Part shown: positions 24,337-34,638 of the stretch, piece by piece
Position numbering within the stretch: the first letter of the stretch is position 1
Layout: each line of letters begins with the position of its first letter
Source: Hylemonella gracilis ATCC 19624
GTDB taxonomy: Bacteria; Pseudomonadota; Gammaproteobacteria; Burkholderiales; Burkholderiaceae_C
DNA length: 55,531 nt
Direction of reading: 5' to 3'
Assembly (NCBI RefSeq): GCF_000211835.1
Contig: NZ_AEGR01000081.1
Location: forward strand, 1-55,531
Notes under the pieces: generated by a model
Databases searched by the model: none
The model's input: only the letters and a program-made list of their open reading frames with translations
Told to the model about the DNA's origin: nothing
Program-made: the position numbers and the translations under genes

Positions 24337-25296
24337 ATGCGCATCGCCCTCATCGGTCAACAGGATTTTGGCAAGGCCGTGCTGCACGCCTTTCTCGCGC
24401 GCGGCGCATCCCAGGGCGACACCGTCGTCGGCGTGTTCTGCAAACCCGAGCAGCCCGGCGAGAAACCGGACGCCCTGCGCGAGGCAGCGCAGGCCGCCGG
24501 CCTACCCGTGTTTCAGTTCGCCAGCCTCAAGAGCGAGGAAGCACACGCCGCGCTGCGTGCGCTCGACGCGGACCTGGGCGTGATGGCCTATGTGCTGCAG
24601 TTCGCCCCGCAGAGCTTCGTGAAGCTTCCGAAGCACGGCACCATCCAATACCACCCTTCCCTGCTGCCCCGGCATCGCGGCCCCTCCTCCATCAATTGGC
24701 CGATCGCGCTGGGCGCGACCGAAACCGGCCTGACCATCTTCCGGCCCACCGATGGACTCGACGAAGGCCCCGTCATCCTGCAAAAGCGTTGCGCGATCGA
24801 AGCCGATGACACGCTGGGCGAGGTGTACTTCAACAAGCTCTTCCCCCTGGGCGTGCAAGCTTTGCTGGAAGCCGCCGACCTGGTTGTCGCGGGCCGGCAC
24901 ACCGAGCATGTCCAAGACGAAAGCCAAGCCAGCTACGAAGGCTGGTTCAAGTCCGAGGAAGCGCGCATCCACTGGGCCCAGCACGTCGACCAGGTGTACA
25001 ACCTGATCCGTGCCTGCAATCCCGCGCCAGGCGCATGGTTCGAGATGAGCGATGCCCACGGTCGCCCGATGAAAGTCTCGGTCTATGACTGCCGCAAGCA
25101 TGTGACCCGCACCTTCGCTGCGGTGCGAGGCAAGCCGGGCGACATCGTGGAAATCGCGACGCAGTCCCTCTTCATCGCGGCACATGGCGGCGAAATCGAG
25201 GTGCTGCGGGTCAAGGCGCAGATCGCGGGGGCAAGCGGCAAGAAGGTGGACGCCGCCGCCTTCGCTCGCGAACACGGGCTGCGCGCCGTGTGCTGA
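24337..25296 (+). CDS. Stand-alone formyltransferase (10-formyl-THF hydrolase-like)
   Basis: This is a formyltransferase-family protein, 319 aa, most like the N-terminal hydrolase domain of 10-formyltetrahydrofolate dehydrogenase (ALDH1L1). It has a Rossmann-like formyl_trans_N domain (residues 1-190) and a C-terminal domain of the Fmt type (about 205-310). The motif QYHPSLLPRHRG places the catalytic His at 106, and DGLDEG the catalytic Asp at 142, the same numbering as in ALDH1L1. No aldehyde dehydrogenase domain follows. It could release formate from 10-formyl-THF or transfer formyl to an unidentified acceptor. It is not the housekeeping methionyl-tRNA formyltransferase by motif. It lies between the 6S RNA and the oxalate cluster. 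Confidence 0.85.
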   Translation: MRIALIGQQDFGKAVLHAFLARGASQGDTVVGVFCKPEQPGEKPDALREAAQAAGLPVFQFASLKSEEAHAALRALDADLGVMAYVLQFAPQSFVKLPKHGTIQYHPSLLPRHRGPSSINWPIALGATETGLTIFRPTDGLDEGPVILQKRCAIEADDTLGEVYFNKLFPLGVQALLEAADLVVAGRHTEHVQDESQASYEGWFKSEEARIHWAQHVDQVYNLIRACNPAPGAWFEMSDAHGRPMKVSVYDCRKHVTRTFAAVRGKPGDIVEIATQSLFIAAHGGEIEVLRVKAQIAGASGKKVDAAAFAREHGLRAVC

Positions 25297-25455: not shown

Positions 25456-25577
25456 GTTGCGCCTGCGAAACGCACTTTCATTGGTGTTTGCCCTTGCTTT
25501 GGTCACGGATGCGATCCGCCACACTCGGAGAAGCCCCAATCACGGAAACCCTAGGGGACCTCTTAAAAATAAAGAAA

Positions 25578-25593
25578 GTTGACCGCAATCAAG
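25578..25593. promoter_or_regulatory. Putative Crp/Fnr-type operator upstream of the Bug-tctBA operon
   Basis: GTTGACC-GC-AATCAAG resembles an FNR-type half-site pair (TTGAC-N4-ATCAA) and the perfect palindrome upstream of oxc. Its centre (25585.5) lies 28.5 bp before a -10-like TAGAGT at 25614-25619, which puts it near -40.5 of a start at about 25626, the class II activator position. The link to the regulator at 29087-29695 is inference. Confidence 0.55.
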
Positions 25594-25730
25594 AGGATTT
25601 CAGCACCAAAATTTAGAGTACGCCCCATCGATTGGTGCTGATGCGAATGAGTCCATTCGATGAGGCTATCGAAGAAGAAATCCACGTCCTAAAACCGTCC
25701 GCGACGGTGCAACGTCAACAGGAGACAAAG

Positions 25731-26753
25731 ATGAAGAGCTTTCATGCCAGACTGAAAACCAAGGTGGCCACGGTGGCCGCCGCTGTCATCGCGGCCGCCG
25801 GCCTGGTCGCCCCGATGGCGGCGCAGGCCTGGGAACCGAGCAAGCCGGTCGAGTTCGTGGTGCCCGCTGGCACGGGTGGCGGCGCTGACCAGATGGCCCG
25901 TCTGATCCAGGGCATCATCGTCAAGCACAACCTGATGAAGCAGTCGCTCATCGTCGTCAACAAGTCGGGCGGCGCGGGCGCGGAAGGTTTCTTGTCCGTC
26001 AAGGAGGCCAAGGGCGATCCGCACAAGATCATCATCACCCTGTCCAACCTGTTCACGACACCGCTGGCCACCGGCGTGCCCTTCAACTGGAAGGAGATGA
26101 CCCCGGTGTCGATGATGGCGCTGGACCAATTCGTCCTGTGGGTCAACGCCGACACGCCCTACAAGACCGCCAAGCAGTACATCGATGCCGTGAAAGCCGC
26201 TGGCCCGAACAAGATGAAGATGGGCGGCACGGGCTCCAAGCAGGAAGACCAGATCATCACCGTGGGTCTTGAAAAGGCCACCGGCACCAAGTTCATTTAC
26301 GTGCCCTTCAAGGGCGGCGGCGAAGTGGCCGTGCAACTCGTGGGCGGCCACATTGACTCCACCGTGAACAACCCCGCCGAGGCCGTGGCGCAGTGGCGCG
26401 CGGGCAAGCTGCGCGCATTGTGCGTCTTTGATGACCAACGCCTGCCCTACAAGGCCAAGGTGACGGACACGCAGAGCTGGAACGACATCCCGACCTGCAA
26501 GGAATCGGGCGTGCCCACCGACTACGTGATGTTGCGCGGCATTTTCACCTCCCCGGGCGTCAGCGCCGACCAGATCAAGTACTACGTGGACTTGCTGGCC
26601 AAGGTGCGTGAAACACCGGACTGGAAGGCCGCCATGGAACAGGGCGCTTTCAATCAGACCAGCATGAGCGGCGCCGACTTCACGAAGTGGCTGACCACAG
26701 CTGAAGCGAACCACCGCCAATTGATGACTGAGGCCGGCTTCCTGGCGAAGTAA
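25731..26753 (+). CDS. Bug-family solute-binding protein (TctC-like) of the oxalate cluster
   Basis: This is the periplasmic receptor of a tripartite tricarboxylate transporter, 340 aa. The signal peptide (about residues 1-32) ends in APMAAQA. The mature protein starts with WEPSKPVEFVVPAGTGGGADQMARL, the standard Bug ligand-binding loop (shown here only in part), and continues with VVNKSGGAGAEG and YVPFKGGGEVAVQLVGG. GGAG lies 8 nt before ATG 25731. It is followed by tctB and tctA, and together with oxc and frc the context suggests oxalate or a related small dicarboxylate as substrate. The substrate is not provable from sequence. Confidence 0.9.
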   Translation: MKSFHARLKTKVATVAAAVIAAAGLVAPMAAQAWEPSKPVEFVVPAGTGGGADQMARLIQGIIVKHNLMKQSLIVVNKSGGAGAEGFLSVKEAKGDPHKIIITLSNLFTTPLATGVPFNWKEMTPVSMMALDQFVLWVNADTPYKTAKQYIDAVKAAGPNKMKMGGTGSKQEDQIITVGLEKATGTKFIYVPFKGGGEVAVQLVGGHIDSTVNNPAEAVAQWRAGKLRALCVFDDQRLPYKAKVTDTQSWNDIPTCKESGVPTDYVMLRGIFTSPGVSADQIKYYVDLLAKVRETPDWKAAMEQGAFNQTSMSGADFTKWLTTAEANHRQLMTEAGFLAK

Positions 26754-26783
26754 ACCGGTAGACCTACGGAAGTAGACAGCACG

Positions 26784-26832
26784 CCGGGCCTTGAAGGACG
26801 ACACAGCAACGTCAGCGAGGCCCGGTTTTTTT
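26784..26832 (+). terminator. Intercistronic attenuating terminator between Bug gene and tctB
   Basis: CCGGGCCT at 26784-26791 pairs with AGGCCCGG at 26818-26825, followed by a run of seven T. It lies between the binding-protein gene and tctB. Partial read-through would give more binding protein than membrane subunits, the usual stoichiometry of such systems. Confidence 0.75.
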
Positions 26833-26863
26833 GAAGTCAGTAATCGACAGAAGTTATCTCGTC

Positions 26864-27394
26864 ATGGAATCCAATCAAACTTCCGAGGAGGGCAGCGCCC
26901 TCGCCACCAACGGCACGGTGGACGCCGTGGTCGCGGTGTTGATCTTTCTCCTGGGCGCCCTCGTGGTTTTCGGCAGCCGACAACTCGGTGCCGAGTGGGG
27001 CGACGACGGCCCCGGACCGGGCTATTTCCCCTTCTACATCGGCGTCATCCTGTGCATCTCTGGCTTGGGCGTGCTCGCTCAAAGCCTGCTGGCCAAGGGC
27101 AAGGCCAAGGAAAAGAACGCCGAGGCTTTCGTGGACCGTGAGTCCATGGGCCGCGTGCTGGCCGTGCTGATTCCCGCCATCTTCTACGTGGCCGCGGTGG
27201 ATCTGATCGGCATCTACGTCGCTTCGGCCGTCTACATCGTCCTCTTCATGGTGTATCTGGGCAAGTATGGGTGGATCAAGAGCGTGATCGTCGGCCTGGC
27301 AGTGAACGCCCTGTTCTTCCTGATGTTCGAAGTCTGGTTCAAGGTGCCGCTGCACAAAGGCACCTTTGATCCGCTGAGCTTCCTGGGTTATTGA
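26864..27394 (+). CDS. tctB: Tripartite tricarboxylate transporter small membrane subunit TctB
   Basis: TctB is the small membrane component of the TTT transporter, 176 aa, with four hydrophobic helices (AVVAVLIFLLGALVVFG, FYIGVILCISGLGVL, VLAVLIPAIFYVAAV, and a paired C-terminal stretch). The family signature GPGYFPFYIGV is present. I chose ATG 26864; an upstream in-frame TTG overlaps the attenuator T-run. It is followed after 37 bp by tctA. Confidence 0.9.
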   Translation: MESNQTSEEGSALATNGTVDAVVAVLIFLLGALVVFGSRQLGAEWGDDGPGPGYFPFYIGVILCISGLGVLAQSLLAKGKAKEKNAEAFVDRESMGRVLAVLIPAIFYVAAVDLIGIYVASAVYIVLFMVYLGKYGWIKSVIVGLAVNALFFLMFEVWFKVPLHKGTFDPLSFLGY

Positions 27395-27431
27395 AGACAA
27401 ACACGCGGATCAATCTCGGAGACACAAGAAA

Positions 27432-28961
27432 ATGGAAGAACTCAACGCACTGTTCCACGGGTTTGCGACCGTCATATCGCCGATGAACTTCCTGCTGATG
27501 CTCGTAGGCATCATCCTGGGGGTTCTGATCGGCGTGCTGCCCGGCCTGGGCGGAGCCAATGGCGTGGCCATCCTGCTGCCGCTGACCTTCAGCATGAACC
27601 CGACCTCGGCCATCATCATGCTGTCGTGCATCTACTGGGGTGCGCTGTTCGGCGGCGCGATCACCTCGGTGCTGTTCAATATCCCGGGAGAGCCCTGGTC
27701 GGTGGCCACCACCTTCGATGGCTATCCCATGGCCCAGCAGGGCAAGGCCGGCGAGGCGCTCACGGGAGCCTTCACTTCGTCCTTCATCGGTGCTTTCATC
27801 GCGGTGGTCATGATCACCTTCATGGCACCGCTGGTCGCCAAGTTCGCGCTGAAATTCGGCCCGCCGGAATTCTTCTCGGTCTACCTGCTGACCTTCTGCT
27901 CCTTCGTCGGCATGGGCAAGGGCTCGCCGTTCAAGATCCTGGCCTCGATGACCTTGGGCTTCGCCCTGGCCTGCGTCGGCATGGACACCGTGACCGGACA
28001 GCTGCGCCTGACTTTCGGTTTCCACGAGCTGATGCGCGGCTTCGACTTCCTGATCGCGGTGATCGGCCTGTTCGGCATCGGCGAAATCCTGCTGTCGATG
28101 GAAGAAGGCCTGGCCTTCAACGGCAAGAGCGCGCGCATTGACCCCAAGGTCGTGTTCAACACCTGGAAGCAGCTCCCAGCCTATTGGGCGACATCGCTGC
28201 GCGCTTCCCTGATTGGCATCTGGATGGGCATCACACCCGGTGGCGCGACGCCGGCCTCCTTCATGAGCTATGGCGTGGCCAAGAAGATGTCCAAGAACGG
28301 CAACAACTTCGGCAATGGTGAGCTGGAGGGCGTGGTCGCTCCGGAAACCGCAGCGCACGCGGCTGGCACCAGCGCCCTGCTGCCCATGCTGGCCCTTGGC
28401 ATCCCCGGCTCCCCGACAGCGGCCGTGCTGCTGGGCGGTCTGCTGATCTGGGGCCTGCAGCCCGGTCCGTTGCTCTTCGTCGAGCAAAAGGACTTCGTCT
28501 GGGGCCTGATCGCTTCGATGTACCTGGGCAACCTGGTGGGATTGCTGGTCGTGCTGACGACGGTGCCGCTGTTCGCCTCGATCCTGCGCATCCCCTTCTC
28601 GATCATTGCGCCGGTGATCATCGTGATCTGCGCGATCGGCGCCTACACCGTGCACAACGCCATGCTCGACATCTGGTTCATGCTGCTGTTCGGCGTGGTG
28701 GGCTACGTGTTCAAGAAGCTGGATTACCCGCTCGCGCCGCTGGTGCTGGCCCTGGTGCTCGGCGACAAGGCGGAAGACGCGTTCCGGCAGTCCATGCTGC
28801 TGTCGCAGGGCGATCTGTCCATCATGTTCTCCAATGCCCTGGTCGGCGGCATCACCGCCCTGGCGCTGGTCATGCTGTTCTGGCCGCTGATTTCTAAGCT
28901 GATCGCCTTGGTCAAAGCCCCCAAGCAGCAGCAGTTCGCGGCGGAACGTCCGGTGGATTGA
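27432..28961 (+). CDS. tctA: Tripartite tricarboxylate transporter large membrane subunit TctA
   Basis: TctA is the main translocation subunit, 509 aa, with about 11-12 membrane segments. The conserved N-terminal GVLIGVLPGLGGANGVAILLPLTF-type loop is present (GVLPGLGGANG), together with CIYWGALFGGAITSVLFNIPGEP and, in the middle, IPGSPTAAVLLGGLL, all diagnostic of TctA. GGAG precedes ATG 27432. A strong terminator follows, so the transporter forms a three-gene unit. Confidence 0.95.
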   Translation: MEELNALFHGFATVISPMNFLLMLVGIILGVLIGVLPGLGGANGVAILLPLTFSMNPTSAIIMLSCIYWGALFGGAITSVLFNIPGEPWSVATTFDGYPMAQQGKAGEALTGAFTSSFIGAFIAVVMITFMAPLVAKFALKFGPPEFFSVYLLTFCSFVGMGKGSPFKILASMTLGFALACVGMDTVTGQLRLTFGFHELMRGFDFLIAVIGLFGIGEILLSMEEGLAFNGKSARIDPKVVFNTWKQLPAYWATSLRASLIGIWMGITPGGATPASFMSYGVAKKMSKNGNNFGNGELEGVVAPETAAHAAGTSALLPMLALGIPGSPTAAVLLGGLLIWGLQPGPLLFVEQKDFVWGLIASMYLGNLVGLLVVLTTVPLFASILRIPFSIIAPVIIVICAIGAYTVHNAMLDIWFMLLFGVVGYVFKKLDYPLAPLVLALVLGDKAEDAFRQSMLLSQGDLSIMFSNALVGGITALALVMLFWPLISKLIALVKAPKQQQFAAERPVD

Positions 28962-28995
28962 CATTCGACGACATCGCCTGCAACACAAGGCAAAA

Positions 28996-29025
28996 GGCCC
29001 GCTTCGATTGAAGCGGGCCTTTTTT
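28996..29025. terminator. Bidirectional terminator after tctA
   Basis: GGCCCGCTTC-GATT-GAAGCGGGCC is a perfect 10-bp stem followed by TTTTTT on the plus strand and by TTTT on the minus strand. It separates tctA from the convergently transcribed Crp/Fnr-type regulator and can serve both. Confidence 0.9.
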
Positions 29026-29086
29026 CATGCAGGAGCAGCACGGTGGCGTGCCGGAAAGACTTCAAGCCAAGTGGCTTGACCGAGGC

Positions 29087-29695
29087 TCAAATCTTGCCGC
29101 GCTGTTTCAGGCGGCTGAGCGTCTCGGCGGAGAGGTTGAGGTAAGCCGCCAATTCCTTCTTGGGAATGCGGTCAAACAGCTCACCATGCTTGCGAAGAAA
29201 GCGGTGCACCCGACCTGGCGCGTCCAACAGGTGCAGGGTGATCGTGTGCGCCATGATCTCGCTCATATGGCTCATCACGCTGTGCTCGAACAAGCGCTTT
29301 TCCTCGGCATGTTGCTCCAGGAAGGCGATCCATTCCGGCATGGGCAGCTTGACGACTCGCGCCTTGGTGACGGACACGATGCTGTAAGGCGCCGGAGTCT
29401 TCAGCATCCAGGCGGCGTAGCTGGTTTCCATCTCGCGCTCCGCCGCGAAGCGCAAGATCATTTCCTTGCCCTGGGGATTGGCCACGACGCGTTTGAGGAC
29501 ACCATCCAGGATGAAATACTGTTCCATCTCGTGCACGCCCTGGTGCAGCAGGAAATCGCCCTTGCTGCAATCCACGACGGTCAAGTGGGGTTCGAGCGAC
29601 TGGTGCGCATCCACGCCCAAATCCTTGAGCACTTGGTTTTGGCGCAATTGGACCCGGATGACGTTTTTTTCCGGGTGATTCTCGATACTGCTCAT
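29087..29695 (-). CDS. Crp/Fnr-family transcriptional regulator of the oxalate cluster
   Basis: This is a 202-aa Crp/Fnr-type protein with a cyclic-nucleotide-binding-like beta-barrel (about residues 35-120), a dimerization helix (about 125-160) and a C-terminal winged HTH (about 165-200). The recognition helix SAETLSRLKQ holds E191, S194 and R195, matching the E--SR pattern by which FNR reads TTGA half-sites. The N-terminus has only one cysteine in the region, so the FNR [4Fe-4S] cluster is absent; the signal is unknown. It is divergent from oxc, and TTGAC-type palindromes lie in the shared 227-bp spacer and upstream of the transporter. I chose ATG 29695 over GTG 29710. Confidence 0.9.
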   Translation of the reverse strand: MSSIENHPEKNVIRVQLRQNQVLKDLGVDAHQSLEPHLTVVDCSKGDFLLHQGVHEMEQYFILDGVLKRVVANPQGKEMILRFAAEREMETSYAAWMLKTPAPYSIVSVTKARVVKLPMPEWIAFLEQHAEEKRLFEHSVMSHMSEIMAHTITLHLLDAPGRVHRFLRKHGELFDRIPKKELAAYLNLSAETLSRLKQRGKI

Positions 29696-29754
29696 GCTTT
29701 CCACGCGCACACGCCCTCCGCGCCGGCACGGGGCTCCGGGTTAGCGCTACTCTG

Positions 29755-29770
29755 ATTGACCAAGGTCTTT
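29755..29770. promoter_or_regulatory. Second, imperfect Crp/Fnr-type site near the regulator
   Basis: ATTGACC-AA-GGTCTTT matches the left arm and four bases of the right arm of the perfect palindrome 25 bp away. It lies nearer to the regulator start, so it could serve autoregulation. Weak evidence. Confidence 0.35.
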
Positions 29771-29778
29771 GTCCCGAA

Positions 29779-29794
29779 ATTGACCGTGGTCAAT
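29779..29794. promoter_or_regulatory. Perfect Crp/Fnr-type operator upstream of oxc
   Basis: ATTGACC-GT-GGTCAAT is a perfect 7-2-7 inverted repeat. Its centre (29786.5) is 29.5 bp before TATCAT at 29816-29821, a good -10, which places the operator at -41.5 of a start at about 29828. That is the classical class II activation position. The -10 has no fitting -35, consistent with an activator-dependent promoter. Confidence 0.7.
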
Positions 29795-29815
29795 GGAGCC
29801 TCCATAACAGCTTCC

Positions 29816-29821
29816 TATCAT
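29816..29821 (+). promoter_or_regulatory. -10 element of the oxc promoter
   Basis: TATCAT matches five of six bases of the sigma-70 consensus and lies 102 bp before the oxc start, giving a leader of about 95 nt. No -35 hexamer is seen at 17 bp; the palindrome upstream takes its place. Confidence 0.5.
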
Positions 29822-29922: not shown

Positions 29923-31659
29923 ATGTCCAACGACGCCCAAACCAGCACGCTGACCGATGGTTTCCACCTCGTCATCGATGCGCTCAAGCTCAACGGCATC
30001 AGCAACATCTACGGCTTGCCCGGCATCCCGGTCACCGACCTGACCCGCATGATGCAGGCCGAAGGCATGCGGGTGATCTCATTCCGCCACGAAGCCAATG
30101 CGGGCAATGCGGCCGCGATCGCCGGTTTCATGAATGGCGCCAAGGGCGTGCCCGGCGTGTGCCTGACGGTGTCCGCGCCTGGTTTCCTGAATGCTTTGGT
30201 CGCACTGGCCAACGCAACGACCAACTGCTGGCCCATGATCCTGATCTCGGGCTCCTCCGAGCGTGAAATCGTCGACCTGTCCCAAGGCGACTATGAGGAG
30301 ATGGACCAACTCGCCATCGCCAAGCCACTGTGCAAAGCGGCGTTCCGCGTGCTCAATGCCGAGGACATCGGCGTGGGCATCGCCCGCGCCATCCGTGCCG
30401 CGGTCTCCGGTCGCCCTGGCGGTGTCTACCTGGACCTGCCGGCCAAGCTGTTCTCGCAAACCATGGACGCCGCCGCGGGCAAGGCCTCGTTGATCAAGGT
30501 AGTGGACCCGGCCCCGCGCCAGATCCCCGCGCCCGAATCCATCGCCCGCGCACTGAACCTGCTCAAGGGTGCGAAGAAGCCGCTGATCCTGCTGGGCAAG
30601 GGCGCGGCCTACGCGCAGGCTGACGCCGACATCCAGGCCCTGGTCGAGAAGACGGGCATCCCCTACCTGCCCATGTCCATGGCCAAGGGCATCTTGCCCG
30701 ACACCCACCCGCAATCGGCCGCCGCCGCGCGTTCCTTCGTGCTGCCCGAGGCCGACGTGGTGCTGCTGATCGGCGCGCGCCTGAACTGGCTGCTCTCGCA
30801 CGGCAAGGGCAAGACCTGGGGCGGCAAGGACCACAAGGACTGGGGTGGCCAGAAGTTCATCCAGATCGACATCGCCTCCACCGAGTTCGACAGCAACGTG
30901 CGCATCGACGCACCCATCGCGGGCGACATCGGTTCCTGCGTCTCGGCCCTGTTGGCCGGCGTGGGCAACAGCTGGGCCAAGCCGCCCGCTGAGTGGACCA
31001 ACGCCATCAACGACAAGAAGAGCAAGAACATCGCGAAGATGGCCGAAACCCTGGCCAAGGACCCCAAGCCGATGAACTTCCACAGCGCGCTCAACGTGGT
31101 GCGCGACATCTTCAAGGCCCATCCCGACACGCTGCTGGTCAACGAAGGCGCGAACGCGCTGGATTTCACCCGTTCCATCGTGGACATGTACAAGCCGCGC
31201 AAGCGCCTGGACGTGGGCACCTGGGGCGTGATGGGCATCGGCATGGGCTTCGCCGTCGCCGCCGCCGTCGAGAGCAATCAGCGCGTCGTCGCCGTCTGCG
31301 GTGACAGCGCCTTTGGCTTCTCCGGCATGGAGGTGGAAACCATCGCCCGCTACAACCTACCGGTCTGCGTGGTGATCTTCAACAACAACGGCGTCTACCG
31401 CGGCACCGACGTGAACCCGACCGGCGGCGCCGACGTGGCCCCGACCGTGTTCGTCAAGGATGCGCGTTACGAGAAGCTGATGGAAGCCTTCGGTGGCGTG
31501 GGCGTCTATGCCCAGACCTCGGCCGAGTTGCGCAAGGGCATCGAGGACGCCCTCAAGTCGGGCAAGCCCACACTGATCAACGCCATCATCGACGAGACGG
31601 CCGGCACGGAAAGCGGACGCATCACGAGCCTGAACCCGGCCGCCGCGATCAAGAAGTAA
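29923..31659 (+). CDS. oxc: Oxalyl-CoA decarboxylase
   Basis: Oxc is a thiamine-diphosphate enzyme that decarboxylates oxalyl-CoA to formyl-CoA and CO2 in the cytoplasm. The 578-aa protein aligns along its whole length with my recollection of Oxalobacter formigenes Oxc. It has the ThDP-activating glutamate in SFRHEANAG (E57), GDYEEMDQ with its active-site Tyr-Glu pair, [22 protein letters not shown], and the cofactor motif [11 protein letters not shown] ending in NNN. The C-terminus [10 protein letters not shown] is also typical. It is followed by frc after 67 bp. Confidence 0.96.
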
Positions 31660-31726: not shown

Positions 31727-32992
31727 ATGTCCGGAAACAAACCCCTCAAGGGCATCAAGATCATCGACTTCACGCACGTGCAAGCCGGTCCCGCCTGCAC
31801 GCAGTTGCTGGCTTGGTTCGGCGCCGACGTGATAAAGGTCGAGCGCCCGGGTGCCGGTGACGTGACGCGCAGCCAACTGCGTGACATCCCCGATGCCGAC
31901 GCGCTCTACTTCACGATGCTCAACAGCAACAAGCGCTCGCTGACGCTGGACACCAAGACCCCCGAGGGCAAGGAAGTGCTGGAGAAGCTGATCAAGAAGT
32001 CCGACGTGATGGTCGAGAACTTCGGCCCCGGCGCCCTGGACCGCATGGGCTTCACGTGGCAGCGCATCCAGGAGCTGAACCCCGGCATGATCCTCGCATC
32101 CGTCAAGGGCTTCTCCGACGGCCACCACTACGAAGACCTCAAGGTTTATGAAAACGTGGCGCAGTGCGCGGGCGGCGCGGCCTCCACCACCGGCTGGTGG
32201 AAGGGAGAGAACGCTGGCCCGACGATCTCGGCCGCGGCCCTGGGTGACTCCAACACCGGCATGCACTTGGCCATCGGCATCCTGACCGCCATCATCGGCC
32301 GTCAGCAAACCGGCAAGGGCCAGAAGGTGGCCGTGTCCATGCAAGACGCCGTGCTCAACCTCTGCCGCGTCAAGATGCGCGACCAACTGCGTCTGGACAA
32401 GGTCGGCTACCTGGAGGAGTACCCCCAGTATCCGCACGAGAAGTTCGGCGACGTGGTGCCGCGCGGCGGCAATGCGGGCGGCGGTGGCCAGCCGGGCTGG
32501 ATCCTGAAGTGCAAGGGCTGGGAAACCGACCCCAACGCTTACATCTACTTCACGATCCAAGGCCATGCCTGGGAGCCGATTTGCGACGCGCTGGGCAAGC
32601 CGGAATGGAAGACGGACCCCAACTACACCACGGCGAAGGCGCGTCAACCGCACATCATGGACATCTTCGCCACCATCGAGAACTTCATCAAGGACAAGAC
32701 GAAGTTCGAGGCCGTGGACATCTTCCGCAAGTTCGACATTCCTTGCGCGCCGGTGCTGTCCATGAAGGAACTGCTGCACGACAAGTCGCTGCGCGCTTCG
32801 GGCTCCATCGTCGAAGTGCCGCACAAGGTGCGTGGCAGCTACTGGACGGTGGGCAGCCCGATCAAGTTCTCCGACCTCAAGCCCGAGGTGACGGCCTCTC
32901 CGCTGCTGGGCGAGCACACCGACGAAGTGCTGGCTGAGCTGGGCTACAGCAAGGACCAGATCGGCAAGATGCACAGCAACAAGGCGGTCTGA
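31727..32992 (+). CDS. frc: Formyl-CoA:oxalate CoA-transferase (first copy)
   Basis: Frc transfers CoA from formyl-CoA to oxalate, giving oxalyl-CoA for Oxc and releasing formate. The 421-aa class III CoA-transferase has the catalytic aspartate D174 in [10 protein letters not shown], and the glycine loop [12 protein letters not shown] that clamps the acyl-aspartyl intermediate is intact. AAGGAG lies 8 nt before ATG 31727. Its position right behind oxc and its intact glycine loop suggest it is the catabolic enzyme. A terminator follows. Confidence 0.94.
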
Positions 32993-33016
32993 CCCTCCCC
33001 GTCACCCAGCCTGAGA

Positions 33017-33049
33017 CGGCGCCGCTCCTTCGGGAGGGCGCCGTTTTTT
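33017..33049 (+). terminator. Rho-independent terminator after frc
   Basis: CGGCGCC (33017-33023) pairs with GGCGCCG (33037-33043), followed by six T. It closes the oxc-frc unit. The rest of 33050-33390 holds the frc2 promoter and the repeat listed separately. Confidence 0.85.
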
Positions 33050-33181
33050 CATGGTCAGCTCTCTTCTCGCTTTTTCCTTTAACGAAACCCTTTTTCACTG
33101 CGCAGCAACACATCCAAAAAAGCAAAAGTGTTCTGCATGGAACATCGCCGTCGCGCAGGCTGCGCGCGCAAGGGTGCTCCC

Positions 33182-33187
33182 TATAAT
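33182..33187 (+). promoter_or_regulatory. Candidate -10 of the second CoA-transferase gene
   Basis: TATAAT is a perfect -10 about 200 bp before the gene, without a recognisable -35 and without the ATTGACC-type palindrome seen at the other two promoters. The gene may therefore be regulated separately. Confidence 0.45.
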
Positions 33188-33270
33188 CATTTGGAATATT
33201 TGACATGCCGATGACCATGGGTCCTTGGCCTGGTGAAGTGCGCATTCCAAGCAACAATTGAATGAATGCT

Positions 33271-33315
33271 CCCACGCTCCGCCGCTGTGCGGGTCGCTAC
33301 CCCCCGAGGGGGTGC
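33271..33315 (-). repeat. Dispersed GC-rich intergenic repeat, copy 1
   Basis: Read on the minus strand, the element contains CCCCCTCGGGGGG followed by TAGCGACCC and GGAGCGTGGG. The same blocks occur in the same order at 38436-38479 on the plus strand. The first block is self-complementary. It lies between the frc2 promoter candidate and the gene start, so it is part of the leader. I associate this element with Comamonadaceae genomes from memory, not from a search. Confidence 0.7.
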
Positions 33316-33390
33316 TTCTTGCCTTGGGGCGGTCCGACGGCAAAAATGCCGCATTCACCACAAGAGTTTTTAACTTCTGGAGTTTTTTTC

Positions 33391-34638
33391 ATGACCAAGG
33401 CGCTCGAAGGAGTCCGCATCCTCGACTTCACGCATGTGCAGTCGGGCCCCACCTGCACGCAATTGTTGGCGTGGTTTGGCGCGGACGTGATCAAGGTGGA
33501 AAAGGCCGGCGAAGGCGATGCGACGCGCGGACAGCTGCGCGACATTCCAGGCGCGGACAGCCTGTACTTCACCATGCTCAACCACAACAAGCGGTCCATC
33601 ACGCTCAACACCAAGGACCCCAAGGGCAAGGACGTGCTGGTGGATCTGATCAAGCAATGCGACGTCATGGTCGAGAACTTCGCACCGGGCGCGCTCGATC
33701 GCATGGGCTTCAGCTGGGAGCGGATTCAGGAAATCAACCCGCGCATCATCCTCGCCTCCATCAAGGGCTTCGGTCCCGGTCCCTACGAGGATTGCAAGGT
33801 CTACGAGAACGTCGCGCAATGCACGGGCGGCGCAGCCTCCACCACGGGTGACCCGGACGGCCTGCCCACGGTGACAGGCGCTCAGATCGGCGACAGCGGC
33901 ACCGGTCTGCACCTGGCCCTGGGCATCGTGACCGCCCTCTTTCAGCGCGAGAAGACCTGCCGCGGACAGAAGGTCAGCGCCGCCATGCAAGACGCCGTGC
34001 TCAATCTCTGCCGCGTCAAGCTGCGTGACCAGCAGCGGCTGGAACGCACGGGCGTGCTGAAGGAATATCCGCAGTACCCGGACATCGAGTTCGGAGAGGC
34101 CGTGCCCCGCGCCGGCAATGCCTCGGGCGGCGGCCAGCCCGGCTCCATCCTCAAGTGCAAAGGCTGGCAGAAGGACCCGAACGCCTACATCTACTTCATC
34201 ACGCAAGGCGCGGTCTGGCCCGCCATCTGCAAGGTCATTGGCGAGGAAGACTGGATCACCAATCCGCACTTCGCCACACCCGAGGCTCGACTGCCACACC
34301 TGAAGATGATCTTCGCCCGCATCGAGGAATGGACCAAGACCAAGACCAAGTTCGAGGCCATGGACATCCTCAACGAGCATGACATCCCTTGCGGCCCCAT
34401 CCTCTCGATGAAGGAGATCGCAGAAGACAGCTCCCTGCGCGCCACCGGCACCATCGTGGAGGTGGACCATCCCGTGCGCGGCAAGTACCTGACCGTGGGC
34501 AACCCGATCAAGCTCTCGGACAGTCCCGTGGACGTGACGCGCTCACCGCTGCTGGGCGAGCACACCGAGGAGGTGCTGGCCCAGATGGGCTATGGCAAGG
34601 CTCGGATCGAAGAACTGCGCAGCGCGAAGGTGATCTGA
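33391..34638 (+). CDS. frc: Formyl-CoA:oxalate CoA-transferase paralog (second copy)
   Basis: This is a class III CoA-transferase, 415 aa, clearly a paralog of the gene at 31727 with long identical blocks ([40 protein letters not shown]). The catalytic aspartate is D168 in [12 protein letters not shown]. The glycine loop reads [10 protein letters not shown]: its first Gly is Ser and the following Trp is Ser, so loop closure or acyl specificity may differ. I chose ATG 33391, which has TGGAG upstream; the in-frame extension runs through the repeat and is not coding by character. A stem without T-run (34641-34670) follows. Confidence 0.9.

Follow-up and report, generated by a model that had tools for sequence, protein, structure and literature searches.

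INTRODUCTION

The closest described relatives of the system considered here are the transcription regulators FNR and CRP. FNR sites have the form TTGAT-N4-ATCAA, with T and A preferred at the inner half-site positions, and the CRP half-site is TGTGA. As class II activators, both proteins act near position -41.5. Here we describe a predicted regulon in a 55,531-nucleotide stretch of DNA from Hylemonella gracilis ATCC 19624 (contig NZ_AEGR01000081.1; hereafter 'the window'), in which a gene for a Crp/Fnr-type regulator lies between the bug-tctBA transporter operon and the genes oxc and frc, which encode oxalyl-CoA decarboxylase (OXC) and formyl-CoA transferase (FRC). An earlier examination of the DNA letters alone (the 'sequence-only reading') proposed that the two gene groups share an operator and are activated together. 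Our comparative analysis indicates that the product of the regulator gene (29087-29695) is probably a dedicated class II activator of an oxalate regulon composed of oxc(-frc) and bug-tctBA, a reading to which we assign a probability of about 0.87.

Among the matches listed by our literature search, which covered titles and abstract openings and left many subscription papers outside, no Crp/Fnr regulator of oxc or frc was found. The listed paper that names 'Fnr' concerns, judging by these parts of it, an engineered therapeutic strain (PMC8899768).

RESULTS AND DISCUSSION

The regulator resembles FNR and CRP but lacks their sensory residues

The regulator is a member of the Crp/Fnr superfamily, in which a beta-roll domain is joined to a C-terminal helix-turn-helix (HTH). 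The cyclic nucleotide-binding beta-roll family PF00027 matches the window protein with 36.3 bits (cut-off 27.5) and is matched in all 54 orthologues collected below at E<=0.1. Matches to the HTH family PF13545 are weak, both in the window protein (16 bits, under the cut-off of 27) and in the 54 orthologues (again E<=0.1), and when PF13545 was used to survey the genome for Crp/Fnr genes, this one was missed. The HTH is clear in the AlphaFold model, where it is formed by helices 179-185 and 190-198 (pLDDT, a per-residue confidence score, 92.9; predicted template-modelling (TM) score 0.87). This model matches known CRP and FNR structures across nearly the whole chain, with TM scores of 0.82 to Mycobacterium tuberculosis CRP (PDB 4a2u) and 0.81 to A. 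fischeri FNR (PDB 5e44). By sequence, the top PDB match is a Crp-like protein from Cytophaga hutchinsonii (3dn7; 57.7 bits with a profile), which shares the short chain (194 residues) but is only 19% identical in the fold alignment. No NCBIfam cut-off is reached by the window regulator, which is 97% identical to its counterpart in the nearest relative, L114.

With FNR the regulator shares the E--SR recognition helix and a TTGA-N6-TCAA operator core. The sequence-only reading had pointed to E191, S194 and R195, and these residues, which fall within recognition helix 190-198, are indeed present in the window protein and invariant in 54/54 orthologues; ETLSR occurs in 80/80 of the named loci introduced below. 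It had also reported that the FNR cysteine cluster is missing, and this holds well beyond the window: no cysteine is invariant among the 54 orthologues, 29 of which contain no cysteine whatever. Further differences from FNR are a C/G pair at the inner half-site positions of the operator, a local regulon, and a chain that stops 7 residues after R195 and therefore leaves little or no wing. With CRP the regulator shares the fold and the beta-roll domain, but the arginine-serine contacts of CRP to the cyclic AMP (cAMP) phosphate are absent, as the ERSAW segment (R82, S83) stands opposite PAPYSI in the profile alignment, where Pro-Tyr faces the two contact residues. Within PAPYSI, P103 is invariant, and so are K68, R69, R82, T91, A94, A95, W96, I106, H150, T153 and H155 of the regulator. 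This set of residues suggests a ligand pocket of the regulator's own kind.

Two operators in the window

The regulator gene and the two promoters that it is proposed to serve are located as follows:

29087-29695, minus strand: Crp/Fnr-superfamily regulator, 202 amino acids, divergent from oxc
29779-29794, plus strand: oxc operator, 7-2-7 palindrome ATTGACC-GT-GGTCAAT, with core TTGACCGTGGTCAA at 29780-29793
29816-29821, plus strand: -10 element of the oxc promoter, TATCAT, 22 bp behind the operator core
25578-25593, plus strand: bug-tctBA operator, GTTGACC-GC-AATCAAG, with core TTGACCGCAATCAA at 25579-25592
25614-25619, plus strand: proposed -10 element of bug-tctBA, TAGAGT, weak, 21 bp behind the operator core

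Letters and coordinates of both operators agree with the sequence-only reading, and if transcription begins at the predicted starts, taken as 7 bp behind each -10 element, the operators are centred at -41.5 (oxc) and -40.5 (bug). Each operator is kept at its position in 9/9 close relatives aligned. Among the 21 sites of the genome that match TTGACNNNNRTCAA, a 20-column position weight matrix (PWM) ranks the oxc operator first (31.4) and the bug operator second (29.5); the third-ranked site (24.8) has no -10 element. One part of the earlier proposal that fares less well is TAGAGT, which is a weak -10 element and which, at offset 21, the window shares with L114 but with none of the other eight close relatives. 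These carry CACAGT (five), CACGAT (one) or GACCAT (two) at offset 22.

A third operator copy had been proposed nearer the regulator gene (29755-29770). The imperfect match exists, but we rejected it as a functional operator. Its PWM score is 1.9, compared with a mean of 4.6 for the maxima of 60 shuffles, and it is degenerate in L114 and, by eye, unrecognizable in the other eight close relatives aligned. Statistics from the window alone were likewise set aside as proof of the motif, as they exceed chance only modestly: TTGACCNNNNTCAA with at most one mismatch has six matches in the window against a shuffle mean of 1.47, and 2 of 100 shuffles reach six. It is comparative evidence, and not window statistics, that carries the operator claim.

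An additional AAACCCTA box is located at 25546-25553, 33 bp upstream of the core of the bug operator. The same box occurs in 15/47 bug promoters of the named loci (14 at 32-33 bp and one at 72) and in none of the 70 named oxc promoters or the 14 bug promoters of the order-level set, and is possibly the site of a second regulator.

Conservation of the operator and its distance to the -10 element

Relatives were collected from a sample of 300 genomes of the same order, which includes the window's own genome and contributes one orthologue per positive genome. Regulator orthologues were found in 54 of these genomes, with 56-73% identity outside the window's own genome, and in 8 of 398 genomes of a phylum-wide draw, all eight from the same order. 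The order-level neighbourhoods discussed below are those of the other 53 orthologue genomes, and the named loci are the 80 top-ranking ones among at least 524. Regulator and operator occur together in Hylemonella, Variovorax, Polaromonas, Ramlibacter, Herminiimonas, Oxalicibacterium, Collimonas and other genera.

The strict operator precedes an enzyme gene of the cluster in 49 of the 53 order-level neighbourhoods and some gene of the cluster in 51. Among the named loci, an operator precedes an enzyme gene in 77 of 80; in the other three (L125, L140 and L162) the regulator lies within 350 bp of the locus end. Before bug, the strict operator is found in 45 of 53 named loci, which belong to nearer relatives. 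Within the pattern used, the inner half-site positions are C in 84% and G in 80% of sites.

A further feature is the geometry of these promoters. When both samples are pooled and near-duplicates removed, 102 of 111 enzyme promoters carry a TA...T -10 element at 21-23 bp behind the operator (43 at 22 and 59 at 23), and at any offset outside 21-24 the count is three or fewer. The position near -41.5 that the sequence-only reading had proposed at two promoters is also the predicted one in most of the enzyme promoters, where the operator keeps a set spacing to the -10 element. In the bug promoters the looser pattern.A...T is found at 21-23 bp in 43 of 49 non-redundant cases, and the form.A[CG].AT accounts for 16 at offset 22 and 14 at offset 23; the bug-tctBA -10 element therefore appears to be weaker but to occupy about the same place.

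On the regulator side of the operators, no -10 offset is enriched (the highest count is 5 of 82 named rows, outside 21-23), which gives no support to an activation of class II type at the regulator gene itself. A symmetric site with a one-sided -10 element fits the prediction of directional activation. The operator centre does lie less than 42 bp from the regulator start codon in 11 of 42 order-level rows, which makes repression of the regulator's own gene plausible and might be taken to mean that the protein is a repressor released by oxalate or a CoA ester. At oxc, however, the operator takes the place of the -35 region and keeps a constant spacing to the -10 element, which is the geometry of class II activation, and we consider such a repressor quite improbable.

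The operator follows the regulator

In the order sample, the regulator occurs in 54 genomes and OXC in 51; 46 have both, eight have the regulator alone and five have OXC alone (G119, G158, G247, G255 and G293). No operator accompanies oxc in these five genomes. A larger contrast is available in the family of G119, where OXC is present in 82 of 200 genomes and the regulator in 17, all of them with OXC. All 17 regulator genomes, which belong to one genus, have the strict core no more than 500 bp from oxc, and each has a -10 element at offset 22. By comparison, it was found within this distance in none of 54 regulator-less genomes (52 of the family's 65 and two from other families). The best matrix score among regulator-less genomes is 2.4, against 23.6-29.2 in the regulator genomes; three of the 17 were among the PWM training sites, and the strict count is independent of the PWM.

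In five genomes oxc lies on a different contig from the regulator (L199-L203), and an operator-like site precedes oxc in all five. Three have the strict core, and the other two differ from the TTGA/TCAA core by one letter.

The sequence-only reading had suggested a scan of the whole genome with the motif. A scan of this kind returned 30 matches to TTGACNNNNRTCAA against one in the reversed control; because palindromes count twice, the matches represent 21 distinct sites. With nine TTGATNNNNATCAA sites also present, the half-site was rejected as a feature exclusive to the cluster. Only the composite of operator plus TA...T -10 element at 21-23 bp is nearly exclusive, with three genome hits (oxc, bug-tctBA and a chemoreceptor gene) against none in the reversed control. 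A crude codon model supplied the gene calls near these 21 sites. The third composite hit (C25:6686-6727; L095/L204) stands before a gene with methyl-accepting chemotaxis protein (MCP) signalling, HAMP and four-helix sensory domains, and is possibly a chemotaxis link or an FNR site. At a further site (C61:18796-18809; L105), TTGACCTGGATCAA precedes a gene for a sodium:sulfate/carboxylate-type symporter (PF00939), with no -10 element by the composite scan.

Observations that count against a dedicated activator

A number of observations weigh against this reading. Two of them concern FNR: the operator half-site is also read by FNR, which the window's own genome encodes (L001, with a Cys-rich N-terminus and an E--SR helix), and one of the 21 genome sites precedes a COX1-family oxidase gene, as fits FNR. 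The operators might accordingly be targets of this global anaerobic regulator, with other targets for the adjacent Crp/Fnr protein. The identical TTGA half-site and the further TTGAC site before the COX1 gene speak for such an arrangement, but the operator tracks the regulator across the order, and its inner C and G differ from the T and A of FNR sites. Moreover, FNR-type homologues (E<=1e-40) are present in 11 of 11 genomes examined, including the five regulator-less genomes whose oxc has no operator, so that the mere presence of an FNR relative does not explain the operator. In this comparison the homologue of G293 was matched only from residue 73, those of G119 and G255 have one stop in the match, and 'FNR-type' denotes a sequence match irrespective of the cysteine cluster. 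Control of these operators by FNR in place of the adjacent regulator therefore appears highly improbable.

The other points concern coverage. Four of the 53 neighbourhoods gave no scripted operator before an enzyme gene. For two of them (L071 and L086) the coordinates show a site before frc2, and the other two (L051 and L054) have no operator beside the regulator. The strict operator precedes bug in only 14 of 34 bug-bearing order-level neighbourhoods, and only 2 of 49 non-redundant bug promoters have a TA...T -10 element. The perfect agreement among 17 genomes comes from a single genus and includes the three training sites. Finally, a TA...T element at 21-23 bp is found behind only two of the five separate-contig operators (L200 and L201), and for this reason our confidence in a dedicated class II activator was lowered slightly.

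A proposed mechanism for coordinated activation

We propose that the regulator, as a CRP-like dimer, would read TTGAC-N4-GTCAA (in its wider form AAA-N-TTGACCGNGGTCAA) through its FNR-type E--SR helix. Bound near -41.5, it would occupy the -35 region and act as a class II activator, bringing RNA polymerase to both oxc(-frc) and bug-tctBA, such that uptake of the presumed substrate oxalate and its breakdown would rise together. The protein is not expected to sense oxygen through an FNR-type iron-sulfur cluster or cAMP through the contacts of CRP. Instead, its conserved beta-roll pocket appears to be of a different kind and probably accepts a small pathway metabolite. Repression of the regulator gene through the shared operator, or no effect on it, is more likely than activation. 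In this model the sites, their spacing, conservation and co-occurrence with the regulator, and the predicted fold are computational results, whereas binding, activation, the start sites, the ligand and the transport of oxalate are inferred.

The idea of a dedicated activator of the enzyme and transport genes is supported by the cross-species footprint of the operator, the spacing to the -10 element, the co-occurrence of regulator and operator, and the sites before separate-contig oxc genes. It needs refining in two further respects, as the link to transport is patchier in distant relatives (14/34 in the order sample) and the regulon is not strictly one of oxalate, given that 8 of the 54 regulator genomes lack OXC.

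Clusters without OXC and the nature of the signal

Seven of these eight genomes (G007, G036, G048, G081, G092, G132 and G280) carry instead a thiamine diphosphate enzyme resembling 2-hydroxyacyl-CoA lyase (HACL), whose gene adjoins the regulator behind the same operator. Examples in the oxc slot are L041:10103-11866, L046:7500-9218 and L073:4842-6533, which represent an uncharacterized enzyme group. These HACL-like enzymes are 24-27% identical to the window OXC. Those that were searched have 2-hydroxyacyl-CoA lyases as their nearest relatives in the PDB and fall under every NCBIfam cut-off shown. Where OXC has NN(N/G)GxYxG they have NN(S/R/A)(A/S)(M/W)NQIR, and so lack the OXC tyrosine. A HACL structure report names E493 as catalytic (PMC8760513), and the HACL-like enzymes have isoleucine at this position by alignment. 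Formyl-CoA may be the product of a lyase reaction in these enzymes, or they may provide another route from oxalyl-CoA.

Because the regulator is found in clusters that lack OXC, oxalate itself may not be the signal. Every one of the 53 order-level neighbourhoods, and 77 of 80 named loci, retains a gene for OXC, a HACL-like enzyme or formyl-CoA transferase, and a formyltransferase homologue is frequent (50 of 53 neighbourhoods, though only 16 of 80 named loci, whose flanks are shorter). From these patterns we infer that formyl-CoA or a derivative is the leading candidate signal.

An extension compatible with a dedicated activator is that the regulator senses formyl-CoA or an oxalyl- or 2-hydroxyacyl-CoA, and that it controls a formyl-CoA regulon most often seen in the form of oxalate use. 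The gene content described above, and the HACL-like enzymes behind the same operator in seven of eight OXC-less genomes, favour this extension. It is nevertheless doubtful, since an enzyme without the OXC tyrosine and with isoleucine at the E493 position could itself decarboxylate oxalyl-CoA. Somewhat more speculative still is the broader proposal that the beta-roll pocket binds an intermediate of the CoA pathway (oxalyl-CoA, formyl-CoA or something derived from the latter). No other member of the superfamily would then be known to govern a regulon of formyl-CoA, with OXC and lyase-like modules interchangeable under one operator.

Genes of the cluster

Along the plus strand, the cluster order is formyltransferase (fmt), bug, tctB, tctA, oxc, frc1 and frc2; only the regulator gene, between tctA and oxc, is on the minus strand:

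24337-25296, plus strand: fmt, formyltransferase (PF00551/PF02911)
25731-26753, plus strand: bug, solute-binding protein of a tripartite tricarboxylate transporter (PF03401, 106.8 bits)
26864-27394, plus strand: tctB, small membrane subunit (PF07331, 85.8 bits)
27432-28961, plus strand: tctA, large membrane subunit (PF01970, 502.8 bits)
29923-31659, plus strand: oxc, oxalyl-CoA decarboxylase (TIGR03254, 960.4 bits; cut-off 739.4)
31727-32992, plus strand: frc1, formyl-CoA transferase (TIGR03253, 728.6 bits; cut-off 504.2)
33262-34638, plus strand: frc2, formyl-CoA transferase (TIGR03253, 717.9 bits; cut-off 504.2)

OXC and both FRC proteins exceed the NCBIfam equivalog cut-offs. The nearest PDB sequence to the window formyltransferase is a domain of 10-formyl-tetrahydrofolate dehydrogenase (178.8 bits), and the enzyme may hand the formyl group on from formyl-CoA to tetrahydrofolate or set it free. 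A scan of the window found no strict operator before this gene; by coordinates, an operator directly precedes the formyltransferase gene in L044, L045 and L089-L091. The frc1-frc2 gap spans 269 bp (32993-33261) and contains no operator among the top window matches of the scan. In five relatives (L141, L142, L150, L156 and L158) frc2 has an operator of its own.

Significance

Oxalate catabolism connects the oxalate of plants and fungi with carbonate formation in soils and with research on kidney stones. The arrangement described here offers a precise and testable regulon in which one protein and one operator would govern two operons in many genera, and its promoters might be of use as oxalate-responsive parts. 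Because the regulator also appears to govern clusters that lack OXC, the system suggests that the clusters share a signal, and it draws attention to an uncharacterized lyase-like enzyme.

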